DNA of 51,308 nucleotides from Acidithiobacillus marinus (GTDB lineage Bacteria > Pseudomonadota > Gammaproteobacteria > Acidithiobacillales > Acidithiobacillaceae), in NCBI RefSeq assembly GCF_002847505.1, contig NZ_MXAV01000035.1:1-51308 (forward strand). Reading direction: 5' to 3'. Numbering within the stretch: position 1 is the stretch's first letter; every line of letters starts with the position of its first letter. Shown in pieces: positions 1 through 29,712 of this stretch. The notes under the pieces are model-generated. The model had not been told where the DNA came from and did not search any database. It was given only the letters and a program-made list of their open reading frames with translations. A program made the translations under genes and the position numbers.

Positions 1-1
1 G

Positions 2-10117: not shown

Positions 10118-10128
10118 GGAGGCTATTG

Positions 10129-13100
10129 ATGAGAATACTACAGATACGCTTCAGGAATCTGAACTCACTGGTCGGTGAATGGCAAATCGACCTGATGCAC
10201 CCGGCCTTCGCATCTGACGGAATTTTCGCCATCACCGGCCCCACCGGTGCGGGTAAGACCACTATCCTCGATGCTATTTGCCTCGCTCTTTACGGACGGA
10301 CACCGCGCCTTAACAAGGTCACCAAAAGCGGAAATGAAATCATGTCCCGCCAGACCGGCGAATGCTTCGCCGAGGTGACCTTCGAAACCCAGTCTGGACG
10401 TTATCGTTGCCACTGGAGTCAACACCGGGCACGCAAAAAACCGGATGGCGAACTCCAGGCCCCGAAACACGAAATTGCCAATGCCGATTCCGGCGAGATA
10501 TTCGAATCCAAGATCAGAGGTGTAGCCGACCAGATTGAGTTGGCTGCCGGCATGGACTTTGATCGTTTCACCCGATCCATGTTGCTGGCCCAGGGCGGCT
10601 TCGCCGCGTTCCTTCAGGCGGCACCGGATGATCGGGCTCCGATCCTGGAGCAGATAACAGGCACGGAGATCTACAGCCAGATATCCATCCGTGTCCATGA
10701 GCGAAAGCAGCAGGAGCGGGAAACACTGAACCTGCTCCAGGCCGAAACGGCTGGCATCGTGATTATTGAGCCGGAGCAGGAACAAGAGATTGAGCAGGCA
10801 CTCGAGACAAAGCAGAAGGAAGAGGCAGACCTTGCCGCCAAATCCGCTGATACAGGGAAAGCCATTGCATGGCTCACCACCATCGACGGGCTGAAGAAGG
10901 AAATCAGCAGCCTGGCGGATGAAACGAGTAAACTGCAGGGCGATATTGAGGCGTTCAAACCAGATCGTGAAAAGTTGGGCCGGGCGTTGAGTGCCGCCGA
11001 ACTTTCCGGCGCATACGCAACGCTCACTGCCACCCGTAAGCAACAGGAGGTTGACAGAGCAGGCTTGAAAGCGGAGGAAGAGGCTCTTCCTGGACTGGAA
11101 TCTTCCGCCAAGGAACAGGCCGAATTACTGAAATCGGCTGAGCAACAAACCGCTCAGGCAAAAGAAGATCTGAAAGTGGCCACGCCTACATTGCAGAAGG
11201 TTCGCTCCCTAGATCAAAAACTTGCCGATCAGAAAAAAGCTGTCTCGGAAGGTGATGAGGACTGTAAGAAAGATGCGGCCAAGATTGCCGCAGACAATAA
11301 AACCAGGCTTGAAGAACAGGAAAAACGATCCAAGGCTCATGAGTCGCTGGAGATTATAGGCTGCTACCTCAAGGAGCATGCACAGGATGAATGGCTGATT
11401 GGCGGTCTGGCTGGTGTTGAAGAACAGTTGAGCGGCCTGCTCTCCAAACAAAATGAAATCATTCAAAAGCTGGCCGCTCAAGAAACCGCCACAACAGCTC
11501 TGGATCTGGCGACAAAGTCACTCGACGACTGTAAGAAGCAATCTGGCACTCGGAAGCAAGACCTGGAGGATGTCTCAAAGCAGCTTCAGCAGGGCAAGGA
11601 TGCTTTGCGCCAATTACTGGAAGGCCGCTTGTTGCGGGAATATCGCACCGAAAAGGAAACTCTGCTGCGTGAAATGGCCTTCCTGGCCAAAATTGCGGAG
11701 CTCGAAGATCACCGGGCAAAACTGGAAGACGGCAAGCCCTGTCCACTTTGTGGTGCCACTGATCATCCCTTCGCGGAAGGGAATGTCCCGGTCCCCGATG
11801 AAACTGAACAGAAGGTCGACGCCCTGACCAGGCTGATTAACAAAGCCGAGGGTCATGAAACCGCCATCAAGAAACTCATCGATGCTGAAAGCCTGGCCAG
11901 CAAAAACCTGACGGAGGCTGAAAAGCTGGAATCAGCAGCGGCCAATGACAAAAAGGCTGCCGAAAAAGCTCTGGCTGAGATCAGGGAGGGCCTGGTGAAA
12001 CTTCGGGCTGATTTTGCTGAACGCAGGCAGGCCGTCTCTATCAAACTTCAGCCGCTTGGCATTGCTGACATCCCTGAAACGGATATTGCCTCACTGATCG
12101 AATCACTCAGATCACGGCTGAAGGCGTGGCAGGCCAGGATCAAGAAAAAGGCGGATATTGATAAACAGATTGCCGATATCGATAGCGAGGTGAAGCGGCT
12201 GGATGCGGTTATCGAAACTCAAAGCACCATCCTGAATGAAAAACTGGAGCGCCTGAGCATCTTGAAAAAGGAACTCGCCGCCGGAAGGGATGAGCGCAAT
12301 GCACTGTACGGCGACAAGAATCCCGACGCTGAGGAGCGCCGTTTAAACAAGGCGATTTCTGATGCCGAAGGGACCGAAAAGCAGGTCAGAGAACGGCACA
12401 ATGCGCTCCAACAAAAATGGAATACGGCGAAGGCCCAGGTCGAATCTCTGAAGAAACGCATCGACCAACGAGCGCCGGAACTGAGAAGGCTGGAAACCGA
12501 ATTCTCCACAGCACTCACGCCTGTGCGGTTCGCAAGTGAAGAACAGTTTTTGGAGGCTATTTTGCCTCCTGAAACTCGGGCAGCGTTGACGGCCACTGCC
12601 AAGGCTATTGATGCGCGGCAAACAAATTTATTTGCCCGCCAGAAAGATCGGGAAACGCGCTTGGCTACAGAGATGGAGAGAAAAGTTACAGAAAAGTTGC
12701 TGGAAGAGCTTGAGCCCCAATTCAAGGAACAGGAGGAAGCGCTTAAAGATCTGCGGGAAACCATTGCTGGACTCAAAATCAAGCTCAGAGAGAATATAGT
12801 TGCAAAAGAGCGGATCAAGGAAAAGCAGGCAGCTATCGAGGCCCAGAAAAAAGAGTGCCGCAGGTGGGAAAACCTGCATGAATTGATCGGCTCTGCAGAC
12901 GGAAAGAAGTACCGCAATTTTGCTCAGGGACTGACCTTCGAAATGATGATTGGTCACGCCAACCGGCAACTGCAGAAAATGACGGACCGCTACTTGCTGG
13001 CACGGGACGATGTTCAGCCTCTGGAGCTCAACGTGGTCGACAACTACCAGGCCGGGGAGATTCGGTCCACGAAGAACCTTTCCGGCGGTGAGAGCTTTAT

Positions 13101-13407
13101 CGTCAGCCTGTCTCTGGCACTGGGGTTGTCCCATATGGCCAGCAAAAATGTCCGGGTGGATTCGCTGTTCCTGGATGAAGGCTTCGGCACCCTGGACGAG
13201 GAAGCCCTCGACACCGCCCTGGAAACCTTGGCGGGCCTGCAACAGGACGGCAAACTGATCGGCGTCATTTCGCACGTGCTCACCTTGAAGGAGCGGATCA
13301 GTACACAGATCCAGGTAACACCGCAAACTGGCGGTAGAAGTGAAATAAGTGGTCCTGGATGTGGCCGGGCTGCGGTCAGCTCATCACAGCAGAAAAGTGT
13401 GACATGA
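10129..13407 (+). CDS. sbcC: Exonuclease SbcC, Rad50-like ATPase subunit
   Basis: The 1092-residue SMC-like ATPase partner of SbcD. ATG 10129 has an AGGGAGG-type ribosome site a few bases upstream and begins 11 nt after sbcD. Walker A GPTGAGKTT is at about residues 37-45. A long charged coiled coil is broken by the zinc hook CPLC at about 538-541. The ABC signature NLSGGES is near 983, Walker B SLFLDEGFGTLDEE near 1010-1023, and the switch histidine lies in GVISHV. The tail ends normally for the family (TQIQVTPQTGGRSEISG followed by a short variable end). The stop overlaps the ATG of the decayed Fic reading frame as ATGA, so a Fic protein was once translated from the same message. Confidence 0.95.
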   Translation: MRILQIRFRNLNSLVGEWQIDLMHPAFASDGIFAITGPTGAGKTTILDAICLALYGRTPRLNKVTKSGNEIMSRQTGECFAEVTFETQSGRYRCHWSQHRARKKPDGELQAPKHEIANADSGEIFESKIRGVADQIELAAGMDFDRFTRSMLLAQGGFAAFLQAAPDDRAPILEQITGTEIYSQISIRVHERKQQERETLNLLQAETAGIVIIEPEQEQEIEQALETKQKEEADLAAKSADTGKAIAWLTTIDGLKKEISSLADETSKLQGDIEAFKPDREKLGRALSAAELSGAYATLTATRKQQEVDRAGLKAEEEALPGLESSAKEQAELLKSAEQQTAQAKEDLKVATPTLQKVRSLDQKLADQKKAVSEGDEDCKKDAAKIAADNKTRLEEQEKRSKAHESLEIIGCYLKEHAQDEWLIGGLAGVEEQLSGLLSKQNEIIQKLAAQETATTALDLATKSLDDCKKQSGTRKQDLEDVSKQLQQGKDALRQLLEGRLLREYRTEKETLLREMAFLAKIAELEDHRAKLEDGKPCPLCGATDHPFAEGNVPVPDETEQKVDALTRLINKAEGHETAIKKLIDAESLASKNLTEAEKLESAAANDKKAAEKALAEIREGLVKLRADFAERRQAVSIKLQPLGIADIPETDIASLIESLRSRLKAWQARIKKKADIDKQIADIDSEVKRLDAVIETQSTILNEKLERLSILKKELAAGRDERNALYGDKNPDAEERRLNKAISDAEGTEKQVRERHNALQQKWNTAKAQVESLKKRIDQRAPELRRLETEFSTALTPVRFASEEQFLEAILPPETRAALTATAKAIDARQTNLFARQKDRETRLATEMERKVTEKLLEELEPQFKEQEEALKDLRETIAGLKIKLRENIVAKERIKEKQAAIEAQKKECRRWENLHELIGSADGKKYRNFAQGLTFEMMIGHANRQLQKMTDRYLLARDDVQPLELNVVDNYQAGEIRSTKNLSGGESFIVSLSLALGLSHMASKNVRVDSLFLDEGFGTLDEEALDTALETLAGLQQDGKLIGVISHVLTLKERISTQIQVTPQTGGRSEISGPGCGRAAVSSSQQKSVT

Positions 13408-13584
13408 AATATCAGCCTCCCTATTCTATTACCTCTGAGATTCTGAGCCGAATTGCCGCGATTGGTGAGAGTCTTGGTCGACTGTCCGTGCTTCAATTGG
13501 GATAAGACTTGCGTCTACGGCGTATCAATCGGATTCGCACCATTCATGGCTCGCTATCGAGAGGGATATGCTGAGCAGCAGGAG
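13404..13584 (+). pseudogene. Fic-family protein, N-terminal remnant
   Basis: Translation from ATG 13404 gives MKYQPPYSITSEILSRIAAI, then GESLGRLSVLQLG, an in-frame TAA at 13503-13505, and, in the same frame, DLRLRRINRIRTIHGSL. This matches the N-terminal region of Fic proteins, which begins MKYQPP(Y/F)xIT and leads through RRINRIRTIxGSLxIEGNTLS. After GSL the IEGNTLS-like part appears only in another frame (IERDMLS, about 13557-13577). There is thus one stop and one frameshift, after which the homology ends; the HPFxxGNGR catalytic core is absent. Fic proteins are often AMPylators used as toxins. The ATGA overlap with sbcC shows it belonged to the same transcription unit. The identification is from memory of the family N-terminus, not from a search. 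Confidence 0.7.
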
Positions 13585-13592
13585 ATATTAAA

Positions 13593-14135
13593 TTGACCAA
13601 GAAAAAGCCAACCTGGACAGACATCAAGCGCCAGCTCACCGAGTTTGACCGTTCGGCTTTGCTGACCTTGATTCAGGATCTCTATGCCGCGAGTAAAGAG
13701 AATCAGGTTTTCATGCATGCACGTTTCAATTTGGGCGATGATGTGCTGCAACCCTATAAAGCGACTATTGAACGTTGGGTTTGTCCGGATGTAACCCGCA
13801 ATCAAAATTATTCCATTGCCAAGGCGAAGAAGGCAATTGCTGATTACAAAAAAGCAGTCGGCAGGCCAGAGGGAGTGGCAGATCTAACGGTCTTTTATTG
13901 TGAATCCTGTCTGAAGTTGCTGGATTATTGTGGGATGGAGGACGAAAACTACTTCAGTGCTCTGGTACGGATGATTGAGCAGTCTCTGAAGGCCATAGTC
14001 ATGTTGGAAACAGGCCAGCGGGACCATTTTTTAGAACGACTTGAACGTGTTTTTGATGAAAGTTCCAAATGGGGGTGGAGCGTGGATGACGATTTGAATG
14101 ATCTGATGGCAGAATATGGATTTGCTGAAAGGTGA
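13593..14135 (+). CDS. Conserved protein of unknown function next to the primase-helicase
   Basis: A 180-residue soluble protein that I cannot name. The start is the TTG at 13593, with GGAG about 8 nt upstream; there is no better in-frame start before MHARFNLGDD. It opens with a lysine-rich stretch and TWTDIKRQLTEFD, then ALLTLIQDLYAASKENQVFMHARF, then a conserved-looking YKATIERWVCPDV and SIAKAKKAIADYKKAVGRPEG. The rest is predicted helical, with a cysteine pair in FYCESCLKLLDYCG. There are no membrane segments and no obvious catalytic motif. It follows the Fic remnant and overlaps the start of the primase-helicase by 20 nt, so it is probably translated with it and could be its partner or an immunity or regulatory factor; that role is inference. 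Confidence 0.75.
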   Translation: MTKKKPTWTDIKRQLTEFDRSALLTLIQDLYAASKENQVFMHARFNLGDDVLQPYKATIERWVCPDVTRNQNYSIAKAKKAIADYKKAVGRPEGVADLTVFYCESCLKLLDYCGMEDENYFSALVRMIEQSLKAIVMLETGQRDHFLERLERVFDESSKWGWSVDDDLNDLMAEYGFAER

Positions 14136-16572
14136 TGCACTGAATTTGGATATACAGGAGGAGCTACGTCGACTGCGTGAAGAGAATGCACGGCTTGCGG
14201 AAGTGTTAACCCGCCATGGGATTGCTTGGGATGAATCCATTCAATCTGTATCCATTCCTTTAGTATCGAAATCCGCTTCCAGCACCTTTTCTGCCAAAGA
14301 CAAAATAACCCTGTTTCGTCGCTTATTCCATGGGCGGGAGGACACTTATCCGCAACGCTGGGAATCCAACAAAGGTCATTCCGGTTACGCACCGGCTTGT
14401 GGTAATGAGTGGAAACCTGGGATTTGCCATAAGCCACGAATCAAATGTGGTGAATGTAAGCAACGGCAGCTATTGCCATTGTCTGATCAGGTTATCTATG
14501 ACCATTTGTCGGGGAAACAGACTGTAGGAACCTATCCGCTTCTTGATGACGACAGTTGTTATTTTCTTGCAGCAGATTTTGATGAAGCGGACTGGTCGGA
14601 GGATGCCAAATCTTTCATGGAATCCTGCAGGGAACTCGCCATACCGGCGGCATTGGAAATTTCACGTTCTGGCAATGGCGCCCACGTCTGGATCTTTTTT
14701 TCTGAAGCCGTCCCAGCCCGCGAAGCCCGGATGCTGGGTGTTGCATTGATCAGCCACACATGTGATCGTACGCGGCAACTGTCCCTGACCAGCTATGATC
14801 GGTTGTTTCCTAATCAGGACACCATGCCTCAGGGTGGATTTGGCAATTTGATTGCCCTTCCTCTGCAGAAATGGCCAAGGGAACAAGGTCGTAGCGTGTT
14901 CGTTGATGAATCTCTGCGCCCATTCCCGGATCAGTGGGGTTTTCTGGCATCCATTCGTCCAATGTCACACCAAGATTTGAATGGTGCAATATTGCGCGCT
15001 AGTGATGGTCGCCATCCGTTGGATGTAGCCTTTGTTACCGATAATGAAATGGATCCATGGCAGCGGAAATCCTCTACACCTGCTCGAATTGCAGAGGTTC
15101 TACCGCAATCGCTGCGATTAGTGCTTGCCAATCAGATTTATATTGCTAAAGCGGATTTGCCACATTCACTGGCCAACCGCTTGATCCGTCTTGCCGCCTT
15201 CCAGAATCCTGAATTTTATAAGGCCCAGGCTATGCGGATGCCCGTGTGGAATAAGCCACGTATTATTGGTTGCGCCGAAAACCATCCACGCCATATCGGT
15301 TTACCGCGCGGCTGTTTGGATGTGGTGATTGAACTGCTCAAGGAACATGACATCCTCCCGGATATTCAAGACGCGCGTCTGCCAGGGCGGAAGGTGATGG
15401 CCAAATTTACGGGTACTTTGCGCAAAGATCAAAAAATAGCGGTACGAGAGATGCTCAAACATGAATTCGGCGTGCTATGTGCGCCTACCGCTTTTGGGAA
15501 GACAGTTGCCGCCGCCGCCATGATCAGTCGCCGCAAAGTAACTACCTTAATTTTGGTACATCGTGCCGAACTGCTGCGCCAATGGCAGGAGCGGTTGACC
15601 GAATTTCTGGACATTCTCAAGGACGATTTTGGTGTAATCGGTGGGGGCAGGAATCGCCCTTCCGGCAAGATCGATATTGCCATAATGCAATCTTTGACCA
15701 AGCGGGAAGATTTGGGCGAATTGCTCGATCATTACAGTCAGATTATCGTCGACGAATGTCATCATTTATCGGCCTTTTCCTTCGAGGCTGTCCTGAAGCG
15801 GTCTAAGGCGAAATTTGTGTTAGGACTAACAGCTACACCCATACGGCGCGATGGACATCAACCGATTGTCTTCATGCAATGTGGACCGATCCGCCATAGT
15901 GCTGCGAGATCAGAAACCGCCCCGAAGCGACTGGAGGTCTGGTCGAAAGTATTATCTGCATCGGCAATTCCACCAGAATCGCCGATACAGGAGGTTTTTC
16001 GCACCCTCACCAACGATTCAGTGCGTAATCAGCATATTGTTGAGGATGTATTAGCCGCCTATCGGGAAAAGAGAAAGGTATTGGTACTTACCGAGCGAGC
16101 GGATCATCTGCAATGGTTACGTGAGGCGCTAGGGAATGAGGTCGAAAACTGCTTTGTTCTGCACGGCCGTTTATCGAAGAAAATCCGCGCGGCTGTGCTT
16201 GCTGAACTGAATGCCTTGGGTGATTCCTTGCCGAGGGTTTTGCTAGCCACGGGCCGCTTAATTGGGGAGGGCTTCGATCATCCGCCATTGGATACCCTGG
16301 TGCTGGCTATGCCGATTTCCTGGAAGGGGACTCTGCAACAATATGCTGGGCGCCTACACCGAACACACGCGGACAAACAGGATGTCCGTATTTATGATTA
16401 TGCTGAAATCAATCAGCCGCAACTGGCCAGAATGTGGGACAAACGCCAGCGCGGCTATCGGGCCATGGGCTACGAAATAAAGCCAGTAGTAGACGCCGCC
16501 ATCCTTAAAACAGTAGTTAAGGTTGGGTCAGAGCAGGAATCACCACAACGGGTAACCACTGCGACTGGATAA
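14116..16572 (+). CDS. Archaeo-eukaryotic-type primase domain fused to SF2 helicase (TOTE conflict-system type)
   Basis: The 818-residue protein starts with a short coiled coil (EELRRLREENARLAEVL). A primase-like part follows: FRRLFHGREDTYPQRW, a cysteine cluster (PACGNEW...GICHK...KCGEC), AADFDEADW with Asp154 and Asp156, SRSGNGAHVWIFF, and YDRLFPNQDTMPQGGFGNLI. From about residue 435 there is an SF2 helicase: Walker A APTAFGKT (456-463), DECH (546-549), LGLTATP, and late motifs ATGRLIGEGFD and QQYAGRLHR. All catalytic motifs look intact. This fusion is the primase-helicase of the TOTE conflict systems described by comparative genomics, thought to act against invading DNA. The start could instead be TTG 14146, giving a shorter overlap with the upstream gene. 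Confidence 0.85.
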   Translation: MDLLKGDALNLDIQEELRRLREENARLAEVLTRHGIAWDESIQSVSIPLVSKSASSTFSAKDKITLFRRLFHGREDTYPQRWESNKGHSGYAPACGNEWKPGICHKPRIKCGECKQRQLLPLSDQVIYDHLSGKQTVGTYPLLDDDSCYFLAADFDEADWSEDAKSFMESCRELAIPAALEISRSGNGAHVWIFFSEAVPAREARMLGVALISHTCDRTRQLSLTSYDRLFPNQDTMPQGGFGNLIALPLQKWPREQGRSVFVDESLRPFPDQWGFLASIRPMSHQDLNGAILRASDGRHPLDVAFVTDNEMDPWQRKSSTPARIAEVLPQSLRLVLANQIYIAKADLPHSLANRLIRLAAFQNPEFYKAQAMRMPVWNKPRIIGCAENHPRHIGLPRGCLDVVIELLKEHDILPDIQDARLPGRKVMAKFTGTLRKDQKIAVREMLKHEFGVLCAPTAFGKTVAAAAMISRRKVTTLILVHRAELLRQWQERLTEFLDILKDDFGVIGGGRNRPSGKIDIAIMQSLTKREDLGELLDHYSQIIVDECHHLSAFSFEAVLKRSKAKFVLGLTATPIRRDGHQPIVFMQCGPIRHSAARSETAPKRLEVWSKVLSASAIPPESPIQEVFRTLTNDSVRNQHIVEDVLAAYREKRKVLVLTERADHLQWLREALGNEVENCFVLHGRLSKKIRAAVLAELNALGDSLPRVLLATGRLIGEGFDHPPLDTLVLAMPISWKGTLQQYAGRLHRTHADKQDVRIYDYAEINQPQLARMWDKRQRGYRAMGYEIKPVVDAAILKTVVKVGSEQESPQRVTTATG

Positions 16573-16745
16573 TCTGGGCGATCTACCCCTGCGTATTGGC
16601 AAGTGTATTGGGACTATCAGGCCAAGCTCGTACAAGCTTCGCGATGACTATACACCACCAAAAGCAGATCCAGGTGAAGAAAATTGAGCACGACAGCGTA
16701 TCGGCGCCGCATCGTTAATGTATCGCATTTGTGTAGTTTTTGATC

Positions 16746-16757
16746 TACAATAAGACC
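16746..16757 (+). promoter_or_regulatory. Candidate brnTA promoter -10 box with overlapping dyad
   Basis: TACAAT at 16746-16751 (5 of 6 to consensus) ends only 6 nt before the ATG of brnT, so transcription would start at or next to the start codon and the message would be leaderless. An imperfect dyad, TTGTGTAG (about 16730-16737) facing CTACAAT (about 16745-16751), overlaps the box. BrnA antitoxins bind and repress their own promoter in studied systems, so this dyad is a plausible operator. No good -35 box is visible. This is a sequence-level guess. Confidence 0.35.
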
Positions 16758-17039
16758 ATGAAAATAGCTGGGTTCGATTGGGATAGTGGAAACTGGCCTA
16801 AATGCGGGAAGCATGGGGTTTCCCGTGACGACATCGAACGGCTGTTTCTCGACGGTCAGGCGCGTGTGGCGCCAGACCTGAAACACACCACGCCGTCAGA
16901 GAGCCGTCACATTGCGGCAGGCTGGGTCGATGGCCGGGCAATGTTCGTAGCGTTTGCTTTTCGGGGCGACTTCATCCGCCCAGTCAGCGCCCGCTACATG
17001 CACGCAAAGGAGGTGAGCAACTATGAAACGAGTCCCTGA
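16758..17039 (+). CDS. brnT: BrnT-family ribonuclease toxin
   Basis: BrnT is a small RelE-like ribonuclease toxin neutralised by BrnA. I use ATG 16758 (93 residues) because it begins at the conserved MKIAGFDWDSGNWPK stretch; the in-frame TTG at 16740 adds six residues not expected in the family. Family features are seen: the W-D-x-x-N-x-x-K-x-x-KHGV opening, the central SRHIAAGWVDGRAMFVAF strand pair, and the C-terminal FIRPVSARYMHAKEVSNYE with the conserved Arg-Arg/Lys-Tyr region. The toxin precedes the antitoxin and their frames overlap by 17 nt, the usual BrnTA order. The pair sits at the right end of the island, where it may stabilise the element. Confidence 0.85.
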   Translation: MKIAGFDWDSGNWPKCGKHGVSRDDIERLFLDGQARVAPDLKHTTPSESRHIAAGWVDGRAMFVAFAFRGDFIRPVSARYMHAKEVSNYETSP

Positions 17040-17271
17040 ATTCAAGACCGATGCTGAAGCCGAAGCGTTCTTGGAGCAAGACCTTTCCGGCCTTGACTTC
17101 AAGCAGTTCACGCCGATGCACTTTGAGGTGGCGAGGAAAGAAGCCGCCCTGAATGTGCGTCTGCCTGCCGCCCTGATGGACGCGGTACGCGCTAAGGCCA
17201 AGGCCAAGGGCATTCCTTACGCCCGCTATGTGCGGATGGTGTTGGAAGCTGACTTGCAGCGCAGCCGTTGA
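17023..17271 (+). CDS. brnA: BrnA-family antitoxin
   Basis: An 82-residue partner of BrnT. The N-terminal part (EFKTDAEAEAFLEQDLSGLDFKQFTPMHFE) is the toxin-binding region typical of BrnA. The C-terminal part (NVRLPAALMDAVRAKAKAKGIPYARYVRMVLEADL, about residues 45-79) is a ribbon-helix-helix DNA-binding domain. The ATG at 17023 lies inside the end of brnT with an AGGAGG site (in gcaaaggaggtgag) about 7 nt upstream, so antitoxin synthesis is efficiently started and coupled to the toxin. It is expected to dimerise, block BrnT and repress the shared promoter. Nothing else is coded between its stop and the tRNA fragment 160 nt downstream. Confidence 0.85.
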   Translation: MKRVPEFKTDAEAEAFLEQDLSGLDFKQFTPMHFEVARKEAALNVRLPAALMDAVRAKAKAKGIPYARYVRMVLEADLQRSR

Positions 17272-17430
17272 AAGAAGCGGGGAATAATAACGAGGGTAGG
17301 GGCAATAGCTGTGACAGATTTGTACCATGGCTCAAATAGGGAAGGCTGTTATTGTGGTCGTTTCACGTTGGTTGCAGACTTTGGCAAGCGGCGCAACTTA
17401 ATGAAAATTAAAGAACTATAAAATCATGAC

Positions 17431-17480
17431 GCGGACTCATAATCCCTTGGTCCACGGTTCGAGTCCGTGCGGGCCCACCA
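17431..17480 (+). other. 3' half of tRNA-Ile2(CAT): probable attachment-site repeat at island end
   Basis: The segment starts inside an anticodon stem (GGA-CTCATAA-TCC, anticodon CAT). It continues with a TTGGTC variable region, a perfect T-arm (CACGG, loop TTCGAGT, CCGTG), the acceptor 3' strand CGGGCCC, discriminator A and an encoded CCA. The 5' half (acceptor, D-arm) is missing: upstream bases do not contain a matching GGGCCCG. Base 17432 already breaks the anticodon stem, so the conserved core begins at about 17433. The layout resembles tRNA-Ile(CAT) of other gammaproteobacteria more than elongator tRNA-Met. A lone tRNA 3' end downstream of foreign genes is the duplicated att core left by tyrosine-recombinase integration; the intact tRNA should lie at the left end, outside the window. 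Confidence 0.75.
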
Positions 17481-17529
17481 TATAAAACAAGCAGTTAATA
17501 AATTGCGGATGACAATCCTCTGCTCCTCG

Positions 17530-17755
17530 GGTTCGGATTTTATACAGTTCTGGACAGAGGAGTTTTGTCTTGTGGCTGTTGGTGGACTGAAGGACGCCGC
17601 CAAGGCCGGACTTATTGGTCGCGCCACTGCGTAAGTCGCTGAATGATCTTGGCCTTGTTGCCGAAGGCTTTGAAGAAGGCATACGGAAAACTCGCGGCGT
17701 CAAACGGTTGCTGCGTAAGGTCGGCGAGGGCTTTTTCGATTTCAACGGCGTTCAT
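17530..17755 (-). pseudogene. Class I DNA methyltransferase, frameshifted N-terminal remnant
   Basis: On the minus strand, ATG 17755 starts MNAVEIEKALADLTQQPFD, then AASFPYAFFKAFGNKAKIIQRL. A one-base slip at about 17630-17634 then moves the reading into the frame RSGATNKSGLGGVLQSTNSHK. This matches the opening of a family of large DNA methyltransferases (MNAVEIE...PFDAAxFPFAFLxAFGNKxTTxxRL(R)xGxxNxSxxxGGVLQxxN). Similarity ends near 17570, after which the frame runs on without recognisable sequence; the SAM and NPPY motifs are absent. It begins 13 nt after vapC on the same strand, so it was probably part of a vapB-vapC-methyltransferase unit. Its truncation near the tRNA scar suggests loss during island insertion or later deletion. 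Family assignment is from memory. Confidence 0.6.
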
Positions 17756-17768
17756 GAGCGAAAGCGCG

Positions 17769-18188
17769 TCATGCGCCCTTCCAGGGGTTGATGACCGTCA
17801 CGCCGGCCGCATCAAAGGGTGCTGTGTCGCGTGATGCCACGATGAAGCCGCGCGATGCGGCAACGGCGGCGATGTAGCCGTCTGGCGTCGGGAAGCCGCG
17901 CCCACAGTCGCGGGCTGTTACGGCCAGGTCGGCGTAATGGCGCGCCGCATCCGTATCGAAGGGCAGCATCCGATTCTGGAACAGTTCCAGCAGTTCGCTC
18001 AGAGCGTGGTCGAGCATGTTCTTGCGCTTGCCTGCGGGCAGCGCCCGTACACCGAACAATAACTCCGCCAGCGAGACGCTCGAAAGATACAAGGTTTCGG
18101 CCGCCTGGTCATTCAGCCACGCTCTCACGGTCTGGTCCGGCTCGGGCTTCATCGCCTCGGAGACGACGTTGGTATCAAGGACGATCAT
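17769..18188 (-). CDS. vapC: VapC/FitB-type PIN-domain ribonuclease toxin
   Basis: A 139-residue PIN-domain protein, the RNase toxin of a VapBC pair. The acidic active-site residues are visible: Asp5 in MIVLDTNVVSEAM, Glu42 in SVSLAELLFGV, Asp at the start of TPDGYIAAVAASRG, and a final Asp in ASRDTAPFDAAGV. The TNVVSE, AELLFGVRALPAGKR and DGYIAAIA-like segments are closest to the FitB subgroup. It starts directly after the vapB stop (18189/18188), so the two are co-translated. A decayed methyltransferase start lies 13 nt downstream. The toxin looks intact. Confidence 0.9.
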   Translation of the reverse strand: MIVLDTNVVSEAMKPEPDQTVRAWLNDQAAETLYLSSVSLAELLFGVRALPAGKRKNMLDHALSELLELFQNRMLPFDTDAARHYADLAVTARDCGRGFPTPDGYIAAVAASRGFIVASRDTAPFDAAGVTVINPWKGA

Positions 18189-18443
18189 TCAGTCGAAGCG
18201 CAGCGGTTCGGCCGGCGTCTTGTTGCGCGCATTCTCGAAGACAGCGAAATCTTCATTGCTCAGACCGATCTTGCGGCCGATGGCGGTCAGGGCGTCCCCT
18301 ACGCGCACCCGTTTCTCCGGTTTGACCGCCGCCGCCAGAATCTCCCGCACCTCCGCTTCCATGCTGCGGCCGTGCTGAGCCGCCCGCACGCGCAGAGCGC
18401 GATGCACCTCATCCGACACATTCCTTACCGTCAGAATTGCCAT
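18189..18443 (-). CDS. vapB: VapB/FitA-type ribbon-helix-helix antitoxin
   Basis: An 84-residue antitoxin. The N-terminal MAILTVRNVSDEVHRALRVRAAQHGRSMEAEVREIL (about residues 1-36) is the FitA-like ribbon-helix-helix fold that binds the operon promoter. The acidic and hydrophobic C-terminus (GLSNEDFAVFENARNKTPAEPLRFD) is where such antitoxins wrap the PIN toxin. It precedes vapC with no gap. A loose GGGGA ribosome site stands about 11 nt before its ATG. The 290 nt between this gene and the end of the next one (18444-18733) hold its promoter region and no further gene that I can support. Confidence 0.88.
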   Translation of the reverse strand: MAILTVRNVSDEVHRALRVRAAQHGRSMEAEVREILAAAVKPEKRVRVGDALTAIGRKIGLSNEDFAVFENARNKTPAEPLRFD

Positions 18444-18733
18444 AATTCAAGATTCCCCATTTGCTTTCTATGAAGTCAATGATGTAATAATGCAGTCACT
18501 GGCGCAAGCGTCATATCCCTTCAGGTCCTGATGTTTTGCTTGCATAGGTCGTTGAGCTTTTTTACATCTTGGTCATTTACGAAATGGTTGTCGGGACTGT
18601 CTCTGATCAGAAACCTACAAGGTCTTTGGCATATGAACACTGGATAGTGGCACTCGACTCCGCACGACTATTCTTCAGGCAATTTCGCTACAGTAGCAGT
18701 ACACCACCGCTGCTTCAGGATGAGGGCTTGCGC

Positions 18734-19540
18734 CTACTTTTTAGGTGGGGTGGCTACCGCCTGAAAAGTGGCCAGAACCTTACCTTCGGCATCTTTGAAC
18801 TGGAGTGTGGAGCCCTGCATGGCATAGCTGCGGGTTTGTTCCAGTGCTTTGGAGAAAGGGCCGTCAATGCTGACTCCCACGCAGGCCATGCGGGTGGAGA
18901 TGAGGGCAGGGAATTTCAGTTGCTGATTGGCTCCCAGTACCAGTCCGCCGGCAACCCGGTTGCAGCCATCCCAACCGGCAACACGTTGTTCTGCCGGGAT
19001 AAAACTGAGGTAAGGCGCTTTTGCCTCGGAACCTTTTGCGATGGTTTGTCCTGCCAGGCTACTGAGTCGCCACGCGTAACTGGCGTAGAGATCCTGGGCA
19101 GCACTATGATCGCTGACCTTGTGCAGCAGCCAGAGCTTGCCATCGCCAGTGGAGAGCGCCTTACCGGCACCTGTCAGCGGCGCCAGCGCATTTTCCAGTA
19201 CTTGGTAGGCCCCGATTTTTTGCTGATGGGCTCCCAGCAGTTCAATCACCTTGTCCGTCTGCCAGTGAAACCGTCCGGTAGTCTCAGTGATGTTCTGGCT
19301 ACGGTCAGCATACTGGGTGGTGAAGAGATATTGCCCATTGGCTTTAAGGGCGAGGGTGCTGCGGATTCCTGGGCAATCCGCACAAGGTAAGTCGCCCGCA
19401 TAACTACCCTGCCAGTCTAAAGCACTTTGGCTGGTATGTTGGTCTGGAGGGGTGGCAGGATTTATGGGCGGAGTAACCGGCGCACAGGCAGCCAAAAGGC
19501 TGATAATGGGCAAAGAAAAGGTGAATGCCGTGTATTTCAT
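18734..19540 (-). CDS. Outer-membrane-type lipoprotein with NlpE-like and META domains
   Basis: A 268-residue lipoprotein. The signal peptide ends in a lipobox, SLLAAC, with Cys19 as the lipidated residue. Residues about 43-130 form an NlpE-like domain, marked by WQGSYAGDLPCADCPGIRSTL with the C-x-x-C pair known from NlpE, an envelope copper and stress sensor. Residues about 150-262 form a META (HslJ-like) domain (SYAWRLSSLAGQ ... AGWDGCNRVAGGL ... STRMACVG ... LEQTRSYAMQGSTLQF). GGAGGGG lies just before the ATG, and a good promoter is visible upstream. It is likely exposed to the periplasm and may sense or withstand envelope or metal stress, which would suit an organism of metal-rich acidic habitats; that role is inference. 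Confidence 0.85.
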   Translation of the reverse strand: MKYTAFTFSLPIISLLAACAPVTPPINPATPPDQHTSQSALDWQGSYAGDLPCADCPGIRSTLALKANGQYLFTTQYADRSQNITETTGRFHWQTDKVIELLGAHQQKIGAYQVLENALAPLTGAGKALSTGDGKLWLLHKVSDHSAAQDLYASYAWRLSSLAGQTIAKGSEAKAPYLSFIPAEQRVAGWDGCNRVAGGLVLGANQQLKFPALISTRMACVGVSIDGPFSKALEQTRSYAMQGSTLQFKDAEGKVLATFQAVATPPKK

Positions 19541-19567
19541 GTCCCCTCCGAGTTTGAATTTTTTTTG

Positions 19568-19597
19568 ATTCTACGTATTTTTCAATAGGATTGGCAA
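19568..19597 (-). promoter_or_regulatory. Sigma-70-type promoter of the NlpE/META lipoprotein gene
   Basis: Read on the minus strand, TTGCCA (-35, complement of 19592-19597) and TAGAAT (-10, complement of 19568-19573) each match the consensus at 5 of 6 positions, with an 18-nt spacer. The -10 box ends 27 nt before the lipoprotein ATG, leaving a short leader with a GGAGGGG ribosome site. It separates this gene from hugZ, which is read in the same direction upstream. Confidence 0.6.
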
Positions 19598-19650
19598 GGT
19601 GGGCAAAAGTACCTGATTTTCAAGGGCGAAACACCGTGTGGGATCTGGAT

Positions 19651-20424
19651 CTACTGAGCATTTTTATCAACACTCTCACGACACTGCTGTGCCAGTGAAA
19701 CCAGGGCCTTGCGGGCTTCCTGCGCATTGGTGACGGGGTCGGGCAGATCAAAGCGCAGCAGTGTACCGTCGGCGCGCAGATCAAAGCCATCATAATCCAT
19801 GCCCACCATTTCCACCTCGAAAACATCCAGGGCATACTGATGCCGACAATAGTCGCGTAGGTTATCACGATGGTCAGCATTCATATGGGCGATAATGCCC
19901 GCTTCTGCCGCCACCAGCGCATCGCTGGGTGGCGGCGCATAATGTTCAGGTCGAACCCAGTGAATTTTGCCGAAGCCGCCAATGTAGCGGATGTATTCAA
20001 CGGCGATCCGGTAAAAATAGAAATCATGGGCAGCAAAGTAATCCCGGGCTTGGGGGAGATAGCGCAGATAACGATCAGCAAAAGCGTTTTTGTCGGGTAG
20101 CCGGGTGGCGCGACCGGTCAGTGTGACCCTGCCGGCAGCCTGCATGTCTGGGGAGCAGGGTTGTACCAGCAGGCTCACTCGGGAGTCGGCATCGATATTT
20201 TTGGTATGTTCTGCCAGGTTGGATATGAGAATCAGGGGATTGCCTCTGTCATCCAGCACAAAAGGACTGACTGAAGCGAAGGGATAGCCTTCCAGTTTTT
20301 TGGAGAGGGTGCACAGGGATCCATTATGATAGGCGCGCACAAAACGTCGTGCTTCGCTACCGGTGGCTAGGGCTTGATCTTCAGGGGGCATGGAGGCATC
20401 CGGGCTTGTCGACATTGAAATCAA
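19651..20424 (-). CDS. HugZ-family haem-binding/haem oxygenase-like protein
   Basis: A 257-residue protein with a split-barrel flavin-binding-type fold. An N-terminal pyridoxamine-phosphate-oxidase-like barrel (about residues 20-160: ARRFVRAYHNGSLCTLS, YPFASVSPFVLDDRGNPLIL, RVSLLVQP, GRVTLTGRATRL) is joined to a C-terminal DUF2470 domain (about 175-250: IIAHMNADHRDNLRDYC ... MVGMDYDGFDLRADG). This pairing is that of HugZ/HutZ proteins, which bind or break down haem to release iron; close relatives are often annotated only as FMN-binding proteins. The start may be 20424 or the second Met at 20415. It is divergent from the PLD gene, with an inverted repeat between them. Confidence 0.8.
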   Translation of the reverse strand: MISMSTSPDASMPPEDQALATGSEARRFVRAYHNGSLCTLSKKLEGYPFASVSPFVLDDRGNPLILISNLAEHTKNIDADSRVSLLVQPCSPDMQAAGRVTLTGRATRLPDKNAFADRYLRYLPQARDYFAAHDFYFYRIAVEYIRYIGGFGKIHWVRPEHYAPPPSDALVAAEAGIIAHMNADHRDNLRDYCRHQYALDVFEVEMVGMDYDGFDLRADGTLLRFDLPDPVTNAQEARKALVSLAQQCRESVDKNAQ

Positions 20425-20459
20425 TATCTGCAGTCTAAACAGTGATACCGGACCTGTCG

Positions 20460-20473
20460 ATAAACGTGTTTAT
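20460..20473. promoter_or_regulatory. Inverted repeat in the hugZ / PLD divergent intergenic region
   Basis: ATAAAC-GT-GTTTAT is a perfect 6-bp dyad with a 2-nt centre, lying 36 nt before the hugZ start and 69 nt before the PLD gene. Its position in a 117-nt divergent promoter region suggests an operator. It does not fit the 19-bp Fur box. No binding protein can be named. Confidence 0.3.
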
Positions 20474-20541
20474 GGTGACCCTCTTGGCGAACAGCCCACT
20501 TCGTTTTATCTTTCCCTAAAAATTGACTGAGCGTAAATTCC

Positions 20542-21183
20542 ATGATGTCCATCCCTGGCCTAATCCAGCGCGTGATATTGTTCTGCACCATTATTTGTAT
20601 TCCGTTGCAGGCTCCGGCAGATGATTCCTTATGGCAACAGGTTGTGCATTGGGGTGAGGCGCAGTGGTCCATGGCCACAGCCACCATGCCCCGTTCGCCA
20701 GTCACGGTCCCGGCGCAAGGGACAATAGAAGTGGCTTTTTCGCCACCGGGCGGAGCGACGGCGGCCATCGTCGCAGCCCTGGGCGCAGCCCGGCAGCGGA
20801 TCTGGGTGCAGGCTTACAGTTTTACCAGCGCGCCCATCGCCAAGGCGGTATTGCAGGCGGCGCGCCGGGGGCTGGATGTGCAGGTGATGCTGGATAAGAG
20901 TCAGCGTACCCAGAAGTATTCTGTCGCAGATTTTTTTGCGAATCAGGGCGTGCCGGTATTTATTGATGACCAGCATGCCATTGCCCATAACAAGGTCATG
21001 GTCATCGACTCTGACACGCTGGTTACCGGCAGTTTCAATTTCAGTAAGGCGGCGGAGCAGGCTAATGCCGAAAATATGCTGATTTTCAGAGGAAATCCTG
21101 CGTTACAGAAGTTGTATGCCGACAATTTTCGTTTTCATCTGAGCCATTCCACCCGATACGAGCCGCGTCATGGCCGGGATTGA
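20542..21183 (+). CDS. Secreted phospholipase D-superfamily nuclease-like protein
   Basis: A 213-residue protein with an N-terminal signal peptide (MMSIPGLIQRVILFCTIICI, cut likely after APA). One PLD-superfamily domain follows. The single HKD motif is complete: HNKVMVIDSDTLVTGSFNFS, with His, Lys and Asp in the usual spacing, plus the trailing GSFNFSKAAEQANAENM typical of the Nuc endonuclease group and related cytochrome-linked or conjugation-associated PLD proteins. A single-HKD protein of this size normally works as a homodimer. It is predicted to be exported to the periplasm and to cleave phosphodiesters, probably nucleic acid. It is divergent from hugZ and converges on moeA. Confidence 0.85.
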   Translation: MMSIPGLIQRVILFCTIICIPLQAPADDSLWQQVVHWGEAQWSMATATMPRSPVTVPAQGTIEVAFSPPGGATAAIVAALGAARQRIWVQAYSFTSAPIAKAVLQAARRGLDVQVMLDKSQRTQKYSVADFFANQGVPVFIDDQHAIAHNKVMVIDSDTLVTGSFNFSKAAEQANAENMLIFRGNPALQKLYADNFRFHLSHSTRYEPRHGRD

Positions 21184-21232
21184 TTATGATTGACCATAAT
21201 AGACCGGAAAGACACTTGAAGGGCCCAGAAAC

Positions 21233-22471
21233 TTAAACGAGTCCTTCCAGCAACTGCACATCCACGAGGCTCCCGGCCGGGGCGTCTTCGGCCTCAGCGG
21301 CGAGGATGATCAGGCAGTCGGCATGGGCGAGGCCGCTCATGATATGCGAAGCCTGCTGGCCAACTCCAGCGACTTCAAGACCATTTTCTCCAGAGACCAG
21401 CACCCCGCGCTGAAAGTCGGTTCTTCCCGGCTTTTTCTTGAGGGTATGGGCCAAAGGCAGTTTAAGGACAGGGGCTGTCCAGGGTCCATTGCTGCCCATG
21501 CGCTTGAGGATACAGGGCCGTACGAACTGGTAAAAAGTCACCATGGTGGACACTGGATTGCCGGGCAGGCCAAAAAAGGTCGCCTCTCCCAGCTTGCCGA
21601 AGGCCAGTGGCCGACCGGGTTTCATGTTCATTTTCCAGAAATGAATGCTGCCCATACGACCCAGCAGTTCGGCAATATAATCGGCGTCACCGACCGAAAC
21701 GCCGCCCGTGCTGATGACCAGATCAGCCATTCCGGCAGCCTGTTGCAAGGCGGCCTCCAGACGTTCGGGATCATCGGCAATCCGGCCCAGATCATATATT
21801 TCGCAGCCTAGGCGCTGGAGCATGCCCCGCAGGGCATAGCGATTGCTATCATAAATCTGCCCGGCTGCGAGGGTGCTTCCAAGGGGGCGCAGTTCATCAC
21901 CAGTGGAGAAAAAAGCGACCCGTAAGCGCCGCAACACCTTCACTTCCGAAATACCCAGGCTGGCCAGCAGAGCCAGCTGGGCAGGACGCAACAGGGTGCC
22001 GGCCTGCAGTGCCAGGGCACCGGCCTGCAAATCTTCGCCAGCCTGACGAATATTGGCGCCCGCCTGGGGGCGTTGCTGGGGGATGATCTGTTGATCGTGG
22101 ACCTCGGCGAGTTCCTGAATCAGCACACTATCAGCGCCTTCAGGGACGACGGCGCCAGTCATGATTCGTACGCACTCACCGGGGCCGACTGGGCTGGTGA
22201 AGGGGTGACCGGCGAAACAGTGGCCGATCAGTCGTCTGGGGGCCTCGCCATCGGCGCTGCGCAGAGCGTAACCGTCCATGGCGGAATTGGGCCAGGCGGG
22301 CACCGGTTGCGCCGCCCGCAGGTCTTCCGCCAGCACACGGCCCAGAGCGTCGCTCAGGTGCAATATTTCCGTATCCATCAGGGCGGGGCTGGCCGCAAGA
22401 ATGCTGGCTCTGGCCTCTTCCACGCTTTTCGCCAGGGGATCATGTTCATTATCACTGCAGCAGTGCGCCAT
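21233..22471 (-). CDS. moeA: Molybdopterin molybdenumtransferase MoeA
   Basis: MoeA inserts molybdate into adenylylated molybdopterin to make molybdenum cofactor. The 412-residue length is normal. Family motifs are seen: PAWPNSAMDGYALRS near residue 60, RIMTGAVVPEGADSV near 105, VAFFSTGDELRPLG near 185, STGGVSVGDADY near 250 and FGLPGNPVSTMVTF near 295, the last two being the active-site loops. It is the last gene of a mobA-mobB-moeA operon and begins immediately after the mobB stop. A weak dyad (ATTATG...CATAAT, about 21183-21200) lies between its end and the PLD gene but has no U-run. Confidence 0.95.
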   Translation of the reverse strand: MAHCCSDNEHDPLAKSVEEARASILAASPALMDTEILHLSDALGRVLAEDLRAAQPVPAWPNSAMDGYALRSADGEAPRRLIGHCFAGHPFTSPVGPGECVRIMTGAVVPEGADSVLIQELAEVHDQQIIPQQRPQAGANIRQAGEDLQAGALALQAGTLLRPAQLALLASLGISEVKVLRRLRVAFFSTGDELRPLGSTLAAGQIYDSNRYALRGMLQRLGCEIYDLGRIADDPERLEAALQQAAGMADLVISTGGVSVGDADYIAELLGRMGSIHFWKMNMKPGRPLAFGKLGEATFFGLPGNPVSTMVTFYQFVRPCILKRMGSNGPWTAPVLKLPLAHTLKKKPGRTDFQRGVLVSGENGLEVAGVGQQASHIMSGLAHADCLIILAAEAEDAPAGSLVDVQLLEGLV

Positions 22472-22966
22472 TCAGGGTTCCTCGTGTATCCAGCTGTAGA
22501 TGAATTCGGCAATCTTTTGGGGACTATTGAGGTCCACTACCGGACAATGGGTGGATAAGGCCGTATCGCTGGCGACGGCGATGATCTGCGAATCTTCCAG
22601 AGCCAGCAAGGGTTTTTGCAAAGAAGGGCGATGCACCTCTATTTTGGGTATGGGTAATCCCTTGTTTCCTTCCAGAAATAGCAAATCGGCAGAGCTGGGC
22701 AGAGCGGCAGTCATACTTTCCAGGTCTGCAGTTTCTGGCGCCCGAAAGGTCGTAAACCAGCGTTGGGGGCCTTGTAAGAGAACGGCTTCGGCACCCGCCT
22801 CGCGAAGGCGGTAACTGTCTTTACCGGGAGTATCCCAGTCCACCTCATGGTGCGTAGATTTGACCACGGCGATGCGTAATCCTTTGGCTTGCAGTAAGGG
22901 TATCAATGCGCAGAGCAAACTGGTTTTTCCGCTGCCGCTATATCCTACCACTCCTATCGTTTTCAT
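22472..22966 (-). CDS. mobB: Molybdopterin-guanine dinucleotide biosynthesis adaptor MobB
   Basis: A 164-residue P-loop GTPase that aids MobA in attaching GMP to molybdopterin. Walker A is GYSGSGKTSLL at residues 8-18, followed by KSTHHEVDWDTPGKDSYR, the typical switch region, and LFLEGNKGLPIPKIEVHR, the family's conserved middle motif. It overlaps mobA by 4 nt upstream and abuts moeA downstream. Confidence 0.93.
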   Translation of the reverse strand: MKTIGVVGYSGSGKTSLLCALIPLLQAKGLRIAVVKSTHHEVDWDTPGKDSYRLREAGAEAVLLQGPQRWFTTFRAPETADLESMTAALPSSADLLFLEGNKGLPIPKIEVHRPSLQKPLLALEDSQIIAVASDTALSTHCPVVDLNSPQKIAEFIYSWIHEEP

Positions 22967-23565
22967 GGCAGATCCTCGGGACTGTTGCAGTTGCGCAGCA
23001 GGGCTTCATCCAGATACAGGGTTGCGTAATTTAGGTCCTGGAACCAGCCCTGGGCCTTGCGGCCACCTTGATCCAGATAGTGTTGCAGGTGCGGCAGCAG
23101 ACGCCGATGACATAAGGTGACTACGGCATGTAAGCCGGTATCGCTGCTAACCACTACCAGATCCTTGTCCATTTTGGCCTGCCACAGCTGGCGCAGCAGA
23201 TCAGGGGGAAGGAGCGGGCTATCCACCGGAATGCTGGCCACCCAGTCCTCGCGGGCGGCGGCAAGCCCAGCACTCAAGCCCATGAGGGGACCTTCAAAAC
23301 CGTTGTTGGCGTCGGTAATGACCCTGTGACCCAAAGCCCGGTATTGATCCAGATGACGATTGGCACTGATCAGAATCTCTGTACTGTCCGCCTGTATTAT
23401 GTGAATAGCTTGTTTTATCAATGTGCTGCCGTGCCAGCGAACCCAGCCTTTATCGACTCCACCCATCCGTCGGCCTGCTCCGCCCGCCAGAATCAGGCCG
23501 CTTACCGGCAGAAGGGAAAAACTATTTTGCTGTTTGCACATTTGCTTTGGCGGCTGCCCTGTCAT
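22963..23565 (-). CDS. mobA: Molybdenum cofactor guanylyltransferase MobA
   Basis: MobA transfers GMP from GTP to molybdopterin, giving the bis-MGD form used by DMSO-reductase-family enzymes. The nucleotide-binding loop LILAGGAGRRMGGVDKGWV is at about residues 25-43, and the metal-binding acidic motif ASIPVDSPLLPPDLL at about 113-127. At 200 residues it is normal, with a slightly long N-terminus; MCKQQNSF eight residues in could be the true start. First gene of the mob-moe operon; its promoter must lie in the 54 nt shared with the divergent gene at 23620. Confidence 0.93.
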   Translation of the reverse strand: MTGQPPKQMCKQQNSFSLLPVSGLILAGGAGRRMGGVDKGWVRWHGSTLIKQAIHIIQADSTEILISANRHLDQYRALGHRVITDANNGFEGPLMGLSAGLAAAREDWVASIPVDSPLLPPDLLRQLWQAKMDKDLVVVSSDTGLHAVVTLCHRRLLPHLQHYLDQGGRKAQGWFQDLNYATLYLDEALLRNCNSPEDLP

Positions 23566-23619
23566 AAAAGCCTATGCTATCCTTCCACAATTATCTGACA
23601 AGTAAAACCCGGAGCAGGT

Positions 23620-24177
23620 ATGTGGGATTGGTTGCGGGGTAGGTCGGGACCGACGGTTCCCCCCCGTGGGGTGGTCGTGGATGCAGGTATTCCCAATCAG
23701 GAAAGGGTCGCAGAATTACCGCTGCCTGAGGCCCTGTTTGTTCTGCATTATAATGGGTTTGCGCAACTCCCGGAAAATGGTGAATTGCGGCAATTGTTGC
23801 TGGATGCCGCCCGGAATGGAGAGTTCCTGCGCGATCTTCCCCGGGTCAGTGCCCGGCGTCTGGAAGAAAGTCACGGACTGCAGTCCCGTTTTGGCGTGGA
23901 GCTGGAAAACGTGGTGCGCTTTTTCAAGGTGCTCCATAGTGAAATCACCCGGCGCATGTATATCGATGCGGCGCGCAAGCGCGAGGACGTAGCCGGAGTG
24001 CAATTTACTCTCCGCGATCCGGGCCAGGCCGATGTCGAGCAGCTGGCTATTGTCGAAGCGGATCCATCGGCTCTGGGCGCGGGTGTTTATCCTCTCAATC
24101 ATATCCCCGAGAATCCGCATCCGGGAACCGAAAACCCCTTTATAATTCGTATTGTCTTGAAAAAGGATCTGGCATGA
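23620..24177 (+). CDS. Uncharacterised protein coupled to leuB
   Basis: A 185-residue protein that I do not recognise. It opens [11 protein letters not shown] and has no signal peptide or membrane segment. The middle is rich in Glu, Arg and Leu ([35 protein letters not shown]), predicted helical, and the end looks like beta strands ([22 protein letters not shown]). Its stop overlaps the leuB start as ATGA, so the two are translationally coupled. Real coding is supported by that coupling, by codon use like the flanking genes and by the lack of competing frames. The usual partners leuC and leuD are not adjacent here. Confidence 0.75.
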
Positions 24178-25244
24178 AAAAAATAGCGATTTTCCCGGGT
24201 GACGGGATTGGTCCCGAGATTGTCGACGCCGCGCGGCTGGTGCTGGATGCGGTGGATCAGGCTGCTGGCTTGCAACTGCAATGTACGGATGGACTGGTCG
24301 GTGGTGCAGCTCTGGATGCCGCCGATGATCCCCTGCCGGAAGCCTCCCTGCAGCTGGCCATGGCGGCTGATGCAGTCATTCTCGGTGCAGTGGGTGGGCC
24401 GTGCTGGGATAATCTGCCCCCGGCCAAGCGTCCCGAACAGGGTCTGCTGCGTTTACGCAAGCATCTGGATCTTTTCGCCAATTTACGGCCTGCGCAGATT
24501 TTTCTGCAACTGTTGAGTGCCTCGCCCTTGCGCCCGGAACTGGTGCAGGATGTGGATATTCTGGTGGTGCGGGAACTGACCGGTGACATCTACTTTGGTC
24601 AGCCCCGGGGAGTAGAGATCGTCAATGGCAAGCGGCGCGGCCACAACACCATGGTTTATGACGAGGACGAAATCCGCCGGATTGCCCATGTCGCCTTCAA
24701 GGCTGCCCAGGGTCGCCGCAAACAGCTGTGTTCAGTGGACAAGGCGAATGTGCTGGAAACTACCCGCCTGTGGCGGGAAGTCGTGACGGAATTAGCCCCG
24801 GAATATCCCGATGTCAGTTTGACTCATATGTACGTGGATAATGCGGCAATGCAGCTGATTCGTGCCCCTGCCCAGTTTGATGTGCTGCTGACGGGGAACA
24901 TGTTCGGCGACATTCTCTCGGATGAAGCCAGTCAACTGACTGGCTCTATCGGCATGTTGCCCTCGGCCTCGCTGGGGGAGGGGCGGGGCATGTATGAACC
25001 CATTCATGGTTCCGCCCCGGACATTGCCGGCCAGGATAAAGCCAATCCGCTGGCGACCATTTTGTCTATCGCCATGATGCTGCGTCATTCTCTGGGTGCC
25101 GAACAATGGGCACAGCGGGTGGAGATGGCGGTACAGAAAGTGCTGGATGCCGGCTTGCGCACGGCGGATATTGCCGCACCGGGAGAAGCCGTGATCGGCA
25201 CCCGCGCCATGGGTCAGGCGGTCGTTCAAGCCTTGCAACTCTGA
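24174..25244 (+). CDS. leuB: 3-isopropylmalate dehydrogenase LeuB
   Basis: LeuB oxidatively decarboxylates 3-isopropylmalate with NAD in leucine synthesis. The 356-residue protein shows [16 protein letters not shown] at the start, [12 protein letters not shown] and the substrate loop [16 protein letters not shown] (family Arg residues), [16 protein letters not shown], the [16 protein letters not shown] catalytic-Lys stretch, and [13 protein letters not shown] with metal-binding Asp residues. A conserved [24 protein letters not shown] ends the NAD site. It starts within the stop of the preceding unknown gene and is followed 11 nt later by asd. Confidence 0.97.
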
Positions 25245-25255
25245 GGAAGTCGGTT

Positions 25256-26278: not shown

Positions 26279-26343
26279 GGACATTACGGGCCAAAGCTGG
26301 CTCTTCGCGGTACGCTTGCGCTATAGAAAAAGAGGAAACAACA

Positions 26344-28788: not shown

Positions 28789-28790
28789 TC

Positions 28791-29618: not shown

Positions 29619-29621
29619 GCG

Positions 29622-29670: not shown

Positions 29671-29697
29671 CAGACTCATGCTTTATCCCCATGGCGG

Positions 29698-29706: not shown

Positions 29707-29712
29707 GCACTG

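Follow-up and report, generated by a model that had tools for sequence, protein, structure and literature searches.

A displaced tRNA-Ile2(CAT) 3' end as the likely right border of a BREX-carrying genomic island in Acidithiobacillus marinus

Our comparisons indicate that the 48 bp at 17433–17480 of the stretch of Acidithiobacillus marinus DNA analysed here (51,308 nucleotides; the window, contig C29 of genome G000) are the attR of a BREX-carrying genomic island of 47.1 kb inserted in a tRNA gene, and we put the probability of the island as modelled at about 95%. The original prediction had placed the 3' half of a tRNA-Ile2(CAT) at 17431–17480, as the right border of a genomic island, and had expected an intact tRNA followed by an integrase to the left of the window; both were found on another contig of the same genome (C28), and the repeat, the integrase at the intact tRNA and an empty site in the congener G009 bear out the reading as a border. 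Both ends are now fixed for a BREX-carrying island that is split over two contigs in a draft assembly.

The displaced tRNA end and its intact counterpart

The fragment starts within the 5' side of the anticodon stem and runs through the CAT-bearing anticodon loop, the 3' side of the stem, the variable loop and the complete T-arm to the acceptor 3' strand and CCA, a content that had been described correctly at the outset. It corresponds to positions 31–78 of a query spanning the intact tRNA at C28:226720–226796, with 48 of 48 bases identical, and identity stops at 17432; the repeat core had been placed at exactly these coordinates, right to the base. The fragment also stands, as claimed, just after the brnT and brnA pair (16740–17271), which lies about 160 bp to its left. 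Neither ARAGORN nor Rfam called a tRNA at 17433, which would be expected of a fragment, and the sole call of both programs in the window is a tRNA-Ser at 45126. A 29-position pattern taken from the fragment, with up to three mismatches allowed, occurs twice in the assembly of 2.9 Mb (on C28 and in the window, both exact) and its reversed control not at all, and the fragment is therefore not a product of chance. An intact tRNA on the right-hand side had been named as the arrangement at odds with the prediction, and the pattern search gave no copy there. The 121-base BLAST query additionally matched a tRNA-Arg on C5, at 78%.

The intact tRNA carries the ARAGORN label tRNA-Met(cat). Since it shares 81% identity with E. 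coli ileX versus 70% with metU/metT, and since the same genome has two further CAT tRNAs, which we read as the initiator and elongator Met species, it is to judge from these likenesses a tRNA-Ile2 and not a Met tRNA. A sigma-70 gene (regions 2 to 4), read as rpoD, ends just before it, and directly after it lies a convergent tyrosine integrase gene (L007:303–1406, minus strand; up to 367 residues) that matches PF00589 over nearly the full model (E 4.9e-26) and whose R, HxxR and Y residues, which we take to be the catalytic ones, align with those of its relatives. An HTH_17 gene adjoins and overlaps the integrase gene. The closest related integrases in named genomes are those of A. ferruginosus (73%) and A. 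ferrivorans (63%). Eighty related loci were fetched and 47 of them scanned for tRNAs: in 40 of the 47 a tRNA lies on the other strand within 250 bp of the integrase match, as on C28, and in the other seven it is farther off (two loci) or none was found (five). The tRNA targets of these integrases are Phe, Pro, Lys, Thr, Arg, Ser, Asn, Leu and CAT. Two Neisseria elements (L095 and L097), compared at the integrase and the target tRNA alone, have an integrase of the same family in the same convergent arrangement beside tRNA-Ile2-like genes, and the target-tRNA stretch GGGGACTCATAATCCCTTGGTC is the same as here, but their integrases are only 49–50% identical to that of the island.

In the congener G009, contig 96 matches the left flank of the island at 91.4% over 3305 bp, through the tRNA; next after the tRNA comes the right flank of the window (94% over 100 bp, 48 of them being the tRNA end) and, farther right on the same contig, a further part of that flank (91.6% over 1484 bp), the match resuming from window 18708. 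When all assembled island DNA was compared with this stretch of G009, only a 115-bp IS end aligned, at the contig edge. An empty site in a relative had been proposed as a check, and with both flanks on one contig G009 shows one. The right flanks of the window and G009 are not identical, and their difference of about 1.1 kb counts against the island reading: window 17533–18707 stands opposite only 67 bases in G009, where this toxin–antitoxin stretch is missing. The FitAB-like pair of that stretch sits between an integrase relic (see below) and the NlpE gene, and relatives of the pair occur at other places in congeners, G007, G010 and G015 among others.

tRNA gene ends are a well-known insertion route for such islands. 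In the model that we favour, the tyrosine integrase beside the tRNA would recombine a 48-bp segment of the element (anticodon loop to CCA) with its counterpart in tRNA-Ile2; at the left end, next to the integrase, the functional tRNA would then be completed by the element's 48-bp copy, and the tRNA 3' end native to the host would be displaced to the far right end, into the window. The crossover presumably falls within the 48 bp, the integrase is likely to be active and excision should restore the empty site. The repeat, the intact tRNA, the integrase and the empty site are observed directly, and the island hallmarks found here are a tRNA with an identical 3' part, the integrase, the empty site, a sporadic distribution and a deviating GC content. 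Considering that tRNA gene fragments can, as general knowledge has it, come from ordinary duplication, the fragment might instead be a degenerate tRNA-Ile2 duplicate with no link to integration; we judge this highly improbable, since 100% identity up to CCA, the empty site in G009 and an integrase beside the complete tRNA fit integration instead.

Extent and cargo of the island

The island runs from C28:226797 to C29:17480 and amounts to 47.1 kb in the assembly, to which an unassembled IS stretch has to be added (Table 1). Its cargo is of the phage-defence kind: the BREX cluster, further defence-like genes and, at the right end, a toxin–antitoxin pair. Its two parts have GC contents of 50.9% (C28) and 51.7% (1–17480), and the flanks 55.8% and 56.1% (17481–45000). 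The link between the contigs is provided by pglX, which is cut in frame by an ISL3-type element whose 8-bp target duplication is split between C28 and the window. In PADLOC, model positions 1–833 of PglX are on C28 and 893–1173 in the window (ORF from 191), preceded by about 60 open codons, and the eight bases before the ISL3-type element on C28 recur at window 9–16, in the pglX frame. Because of the split pglX and the shared 8-bp duplication, the right end of C28 and the left end of the window are with strong support inferred to be neighbours. Against the model, the ends share no sequence overlap, by which a simple join failed, and the gap holds unassembled IS sequence that may include further DNA. 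An element end of the same 8 bases recurs at C27:140193, next to an 8-bp duplication of its own, and matches the copy that has its left end at C28:477; a joint search with the element end and the duplication of the C28:477 copy gave this one place, beside which lies an ISL3 transposase gene (PF01610). Since the IS target duplications and the split pglX link contig ends, C27, C28 and C29 are most likely consecutive in the genome.

The interruption of pglX spans C28:254484 to window 16, and the ISL3-type element holds a second element, with a DruA-type transposase (C28:254515–256438), that is highly repeated in this genome. Fifteen other places match all of the DruA-type sequence present at the C28 end, and some copies reach contig ends, e.g. 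on C17 and C19. The DruA-type element alone was considered as the breaker of pglX and rejected, as it lies 31 bases inside the ISL3-type element end and the duplication at the window start belongs to the outer, ISL3-type element.

Table 1. Features of the window and of the island part on C28 (window coordinates unless a contig is named; a dot marks features without strand)
Feature	Position	Strand	Basis or remark
Island, left 29.6 kb	C28:226797–256438		C28 ends 29.6 kb beyond tRNA
Island, right 17.4 kb	1–17432	.	Split pglX and 8-bp duplication, GC, flanks joined in G009
ISL3-type element end	1–8		Precedes duplication copy at 9–16
ISL3-type target duplication, right copy, 8 bp (CTACAAAT)	9–16	.	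Left copy at pglX/IS junction on C28
pglX C-terminal part, BREX methyltransferase, interrupted	10–1120	+	PADLOC PglX 893–1173, ORF from 191
YhcG/DUF1016 PD-(D/E)XK nuclease-like gene	1127–2218	+	PF06250, PF17761
pglZ	2196–4700	+	PADLOC PglZ, 1137 bits
brxL	4715–6781	+	PADLOC BrxL, 1226 bits
Candidate defence gene, PADLOC PDC-S06 family	6750–8876	+	977 bits
SbcD-like phosphoesterase	8849–10117	+	PF12320, PF00149
SbcC/Rad50-like ATPase	10126–13407	+	PF13476, PF13558
TOTE-type primase-helicase	14116–16572	+	PF22548, PF04851
brnT toxin gene, right end of island	16740–17039	+	PF04365
brnA-type antitoxin gene	17023–17271	+	PF12441 CopG antitoxin
Probable attR-type direct repeat, displaced tRNA-Ile2(CAT) 3' end, 48 bp	17433–17480	+	100% identical to C28:226749–226796
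Flank motif WWTAAAWCAANNNGTTA, directly after CCA	17481–17497	+	Also beside intact tRNA
Putative relic: promoter and 5' end of second, co-directional integrase, outside island	17481–17576	+	81–83% to G007, G011, G014
FitAB-like PIN toxin–antitoxin pair, outside island	17769–18443	-	Absent from G009 empty site
NlpE/META gene, chromosomal flank	18734–19540	-	Adjoins tRNA in G009

The end of C28 carries, in order, brxA, brxB, brxC, a Schlafen/AlbA-type gene, the first part of pglX and an insertion sequence. The type I BREX gene set, which we take to be brxA, brxB, brxC, pglX, pglZ and brxL, is complete in PADLOC and in the same order, with all six genes matched and pglX in two pieces on two contigs; it differs from that system in that pglX is interrupted by an insertion sequence and in that the Schlafen/AlbA-type and YhcG-type genes lie inside the cluster. 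Considering the interruption of pglX by the ISL3-type element, the BREX system as it stands is probably not working. BrxC was found in one of 17 genomes of the genus, namely that of the window, and plasmid-borne relatives in Methylomonas koyamae match it at up to 72% along its full length and at up to 82% along 61% of its length. Among the selected island ORFs that were scanned, one matched a MobI-like gene (PF19456) and none was recognised as a type IV secretion or conjugation gene.

As background, iMGE3, one of the Acidithiobacillus islands compared here, is presumably ICEAfe1; one study reportedly identifies the anticodon stem-loop as a recombination determinant in Acidithiobacillus, and one paper is said to mention BREX in a related genus. 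The titles and abstract openings retrieved on Acidithiobacillus islands, BREX and tRNA-Ile2 integration do not name the present island. Direct repeats of 48–49 bp accompany the A. ferrooxidans islands at Val-CAC, His-GTG, Arg-TCT and Ala-GGC, and in strain CCM 4253 PCR showed excision for five of six islands tested (PMC10322971). The islands of A. ferrooxidans ATCC 23270 at these tRNAs (iMGE4, iMGE7, iMGE2 and iMGE3, respectively) are thus like ours tRNA islands with 48–49 bp repeats, and some of them likewise carry restriction-modification or toxin–antitoxin cargo (PMC10322971); unlike them, as that paper tabulates them, the present island targets tRNA-Ile2(CAT), carries BREX and has no conjugation genes recognised among the ORFs scanned. 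Tables 1 and 2 of the same paper contain no Ile site and no BREX, and its iMGE9, for which no direct repeat is given, is assigned to 'Met-CAT', possibly an Ile2 under a Met label (PMC10322971). In G015, four tRNAs start at positions (909149, 1346955, 2117161 and 2462004) that coincide with island starts tabulated there for ATCC 23270, so that G015 is probably this strain. The island is ordinary in kind and well supported; it fits the published A. ferrooxidans picture, extending the 48–49 bp repeats to tRNA-Ile2 and adding a BREX cargo.

DNA to the right of the border

Beyond the tRNA end, the flank motif and the stacking of elements of two types seem worth keeping. Immediately right of 17480, the sequence resembles (81–83%; query 1–143, including the tRNA end) the interval between tRNA-Ile2 and a second, co-directional integrase (integrase B) that is intact at tRNA-Ile2 in G007, G011 and G014. 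Measured against the G014 copy, integrase B of G007 is 94% and that of G011 79% identical, and all three are 26–28% identical to the island integrase. The same leader is present in the window, in G004, G005 and G009, and at a second place in G011; no integrase B accompanying it was found by tblastn in these stretches, which are 1.8 to 12.6 kb long, the second G011 place retaining some 17 codons of it. By this likeness the DNA just right of 17480 appears to be the relic of an older, different integrative element, common to G009. Since the relic of the integrase B leader stands beside the tRNA, also in G009, the BREX island was probably the second comer, entering a tRNA already followed by the remains of another element, as is still the case in G009.

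These remains raise the possibility of a composite island, made up of the BREX island and a second mobile element to its right, with 17480 as a junction inside it. This would be compatible with the attR reading and concerns only the DNA beyond the border. We regard it as possible but somewhat improbable. Three other genomes have an intact integrase at this tRNA, and the 96 bp following 17480 match its promoter and start. A FitAB-like pair missing in G009 lies beyond the relic, and G011 has the intact tRNA with integrase B on one contig and, on a second contig, a displaced end next to a decayed form of that promoter. Against a composite, tblastn found no integrase B in window 17433–30000, the window matches G009 from 18708 on, genes of molybdopterin cofactor, of the isocitrate/isopropylmalate dehydrogenase family and of FimV follow farther right, and the pattern search gave no second displaced 3' end of tRNA-Ile2 in the assembly. 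We keep 17480 as the border of the BREX island, with the relic outside it.

Displaced 3' ends of tRNA-Ile2 also occur in G008, G011 and G016 and, outside the genus, in G017, and in G002 a copy of the tRNA-Ile2 end lies at a contig edge; within the genus, tRNA-Ile2 can be named as a site that elements have entered repeatedly. An intact integrase of the B type (76% to that of G014) is present in the window's own genome at a tRNA-Phe (C20:53179–54485, L283), and close to it lies a gene that shares 73% identity along 160 residues with one from the BREX island. At the far end of the window (45126–51308), a tRNA-Ser(CGA) precedes 6 kb of 35% GC whose genes include TPR/YaiO, HEAT-repeat and glycosyltransferase types; this may be a further island. 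An island at this tRNA-Ser was rejected for want of a displaced end: its last 28 bases, with up to two mismatches, recur only at C39:116891–116918, which is the end of another tRNA call.

The motif following CCA

The bases following CCA are similar at the left and right ends of the island, and similar ones follow CCA in many congeners. The pattern CCAWWTAAAWCAANNNGTTA, with at most one mismatch, occurs at 111 places in 17 of 17 genomes, versus two for the reversed control; complete tRNA ends were present at 16 of 20 motif places examined, and two of the remaining four are displaced ends. WWTAAAWCAANNNGTTA stands after CCA at many tRNAs as well as at displaced tRNA ends, and may belong to the attachment site. 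Among the 41 tRNAs of the complete genome G012, the motif is found on 6 at up to one mismatch and on 15 at up to four (scores of at least 10 out of 14 in 15 tRNAs, and of 9 or less in 26).

An association of the motif with integrases is weak in single genomes (P = 0.04, 0.12 and 0.05 at three cut-offs in G012; 0.17 in G004; 0.02 in G015) and stronger in the pooled counts (one table each for G012, G004 and G015): an integrase is near 7 of 22 motif-bearing tRNAs versus 7 of 130 others, with a P of 0.0009 whose motif-free group is inflated by the long tRNA arrays of G004 and G015. The motif was derived from the same sites and the cut-offs for association were chosen afterwards; the counts used 54 of 70 tRNAs in G004 and 57 of 78 in G015, and an integrase counted as near within 1500 bases on either side in G012 and within 2000 bases downstream in G004 and G015. 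The 15 of 22 motif-bearing tRNAs that have no integrase nearby fit both old scars and an ordinary tRNA trailer. We suggest, tentatively and as a rather doubtful proposition, an Acidithiobacillus-wide rule whereby elements with only distantly related integrases share the att extension WWTAAAWCAANNNGTTA directly after the tRNA's CCA, the motif marks tRNAs that have ever been invaded, and relics at tRNA-Ile2 are stacked. If true, WWTAAAWCAANNNGTTA would mark past invasion of tRNAs even where the integrase has been lost, and the flank motif, should it hold, could be used to spot past insertions.
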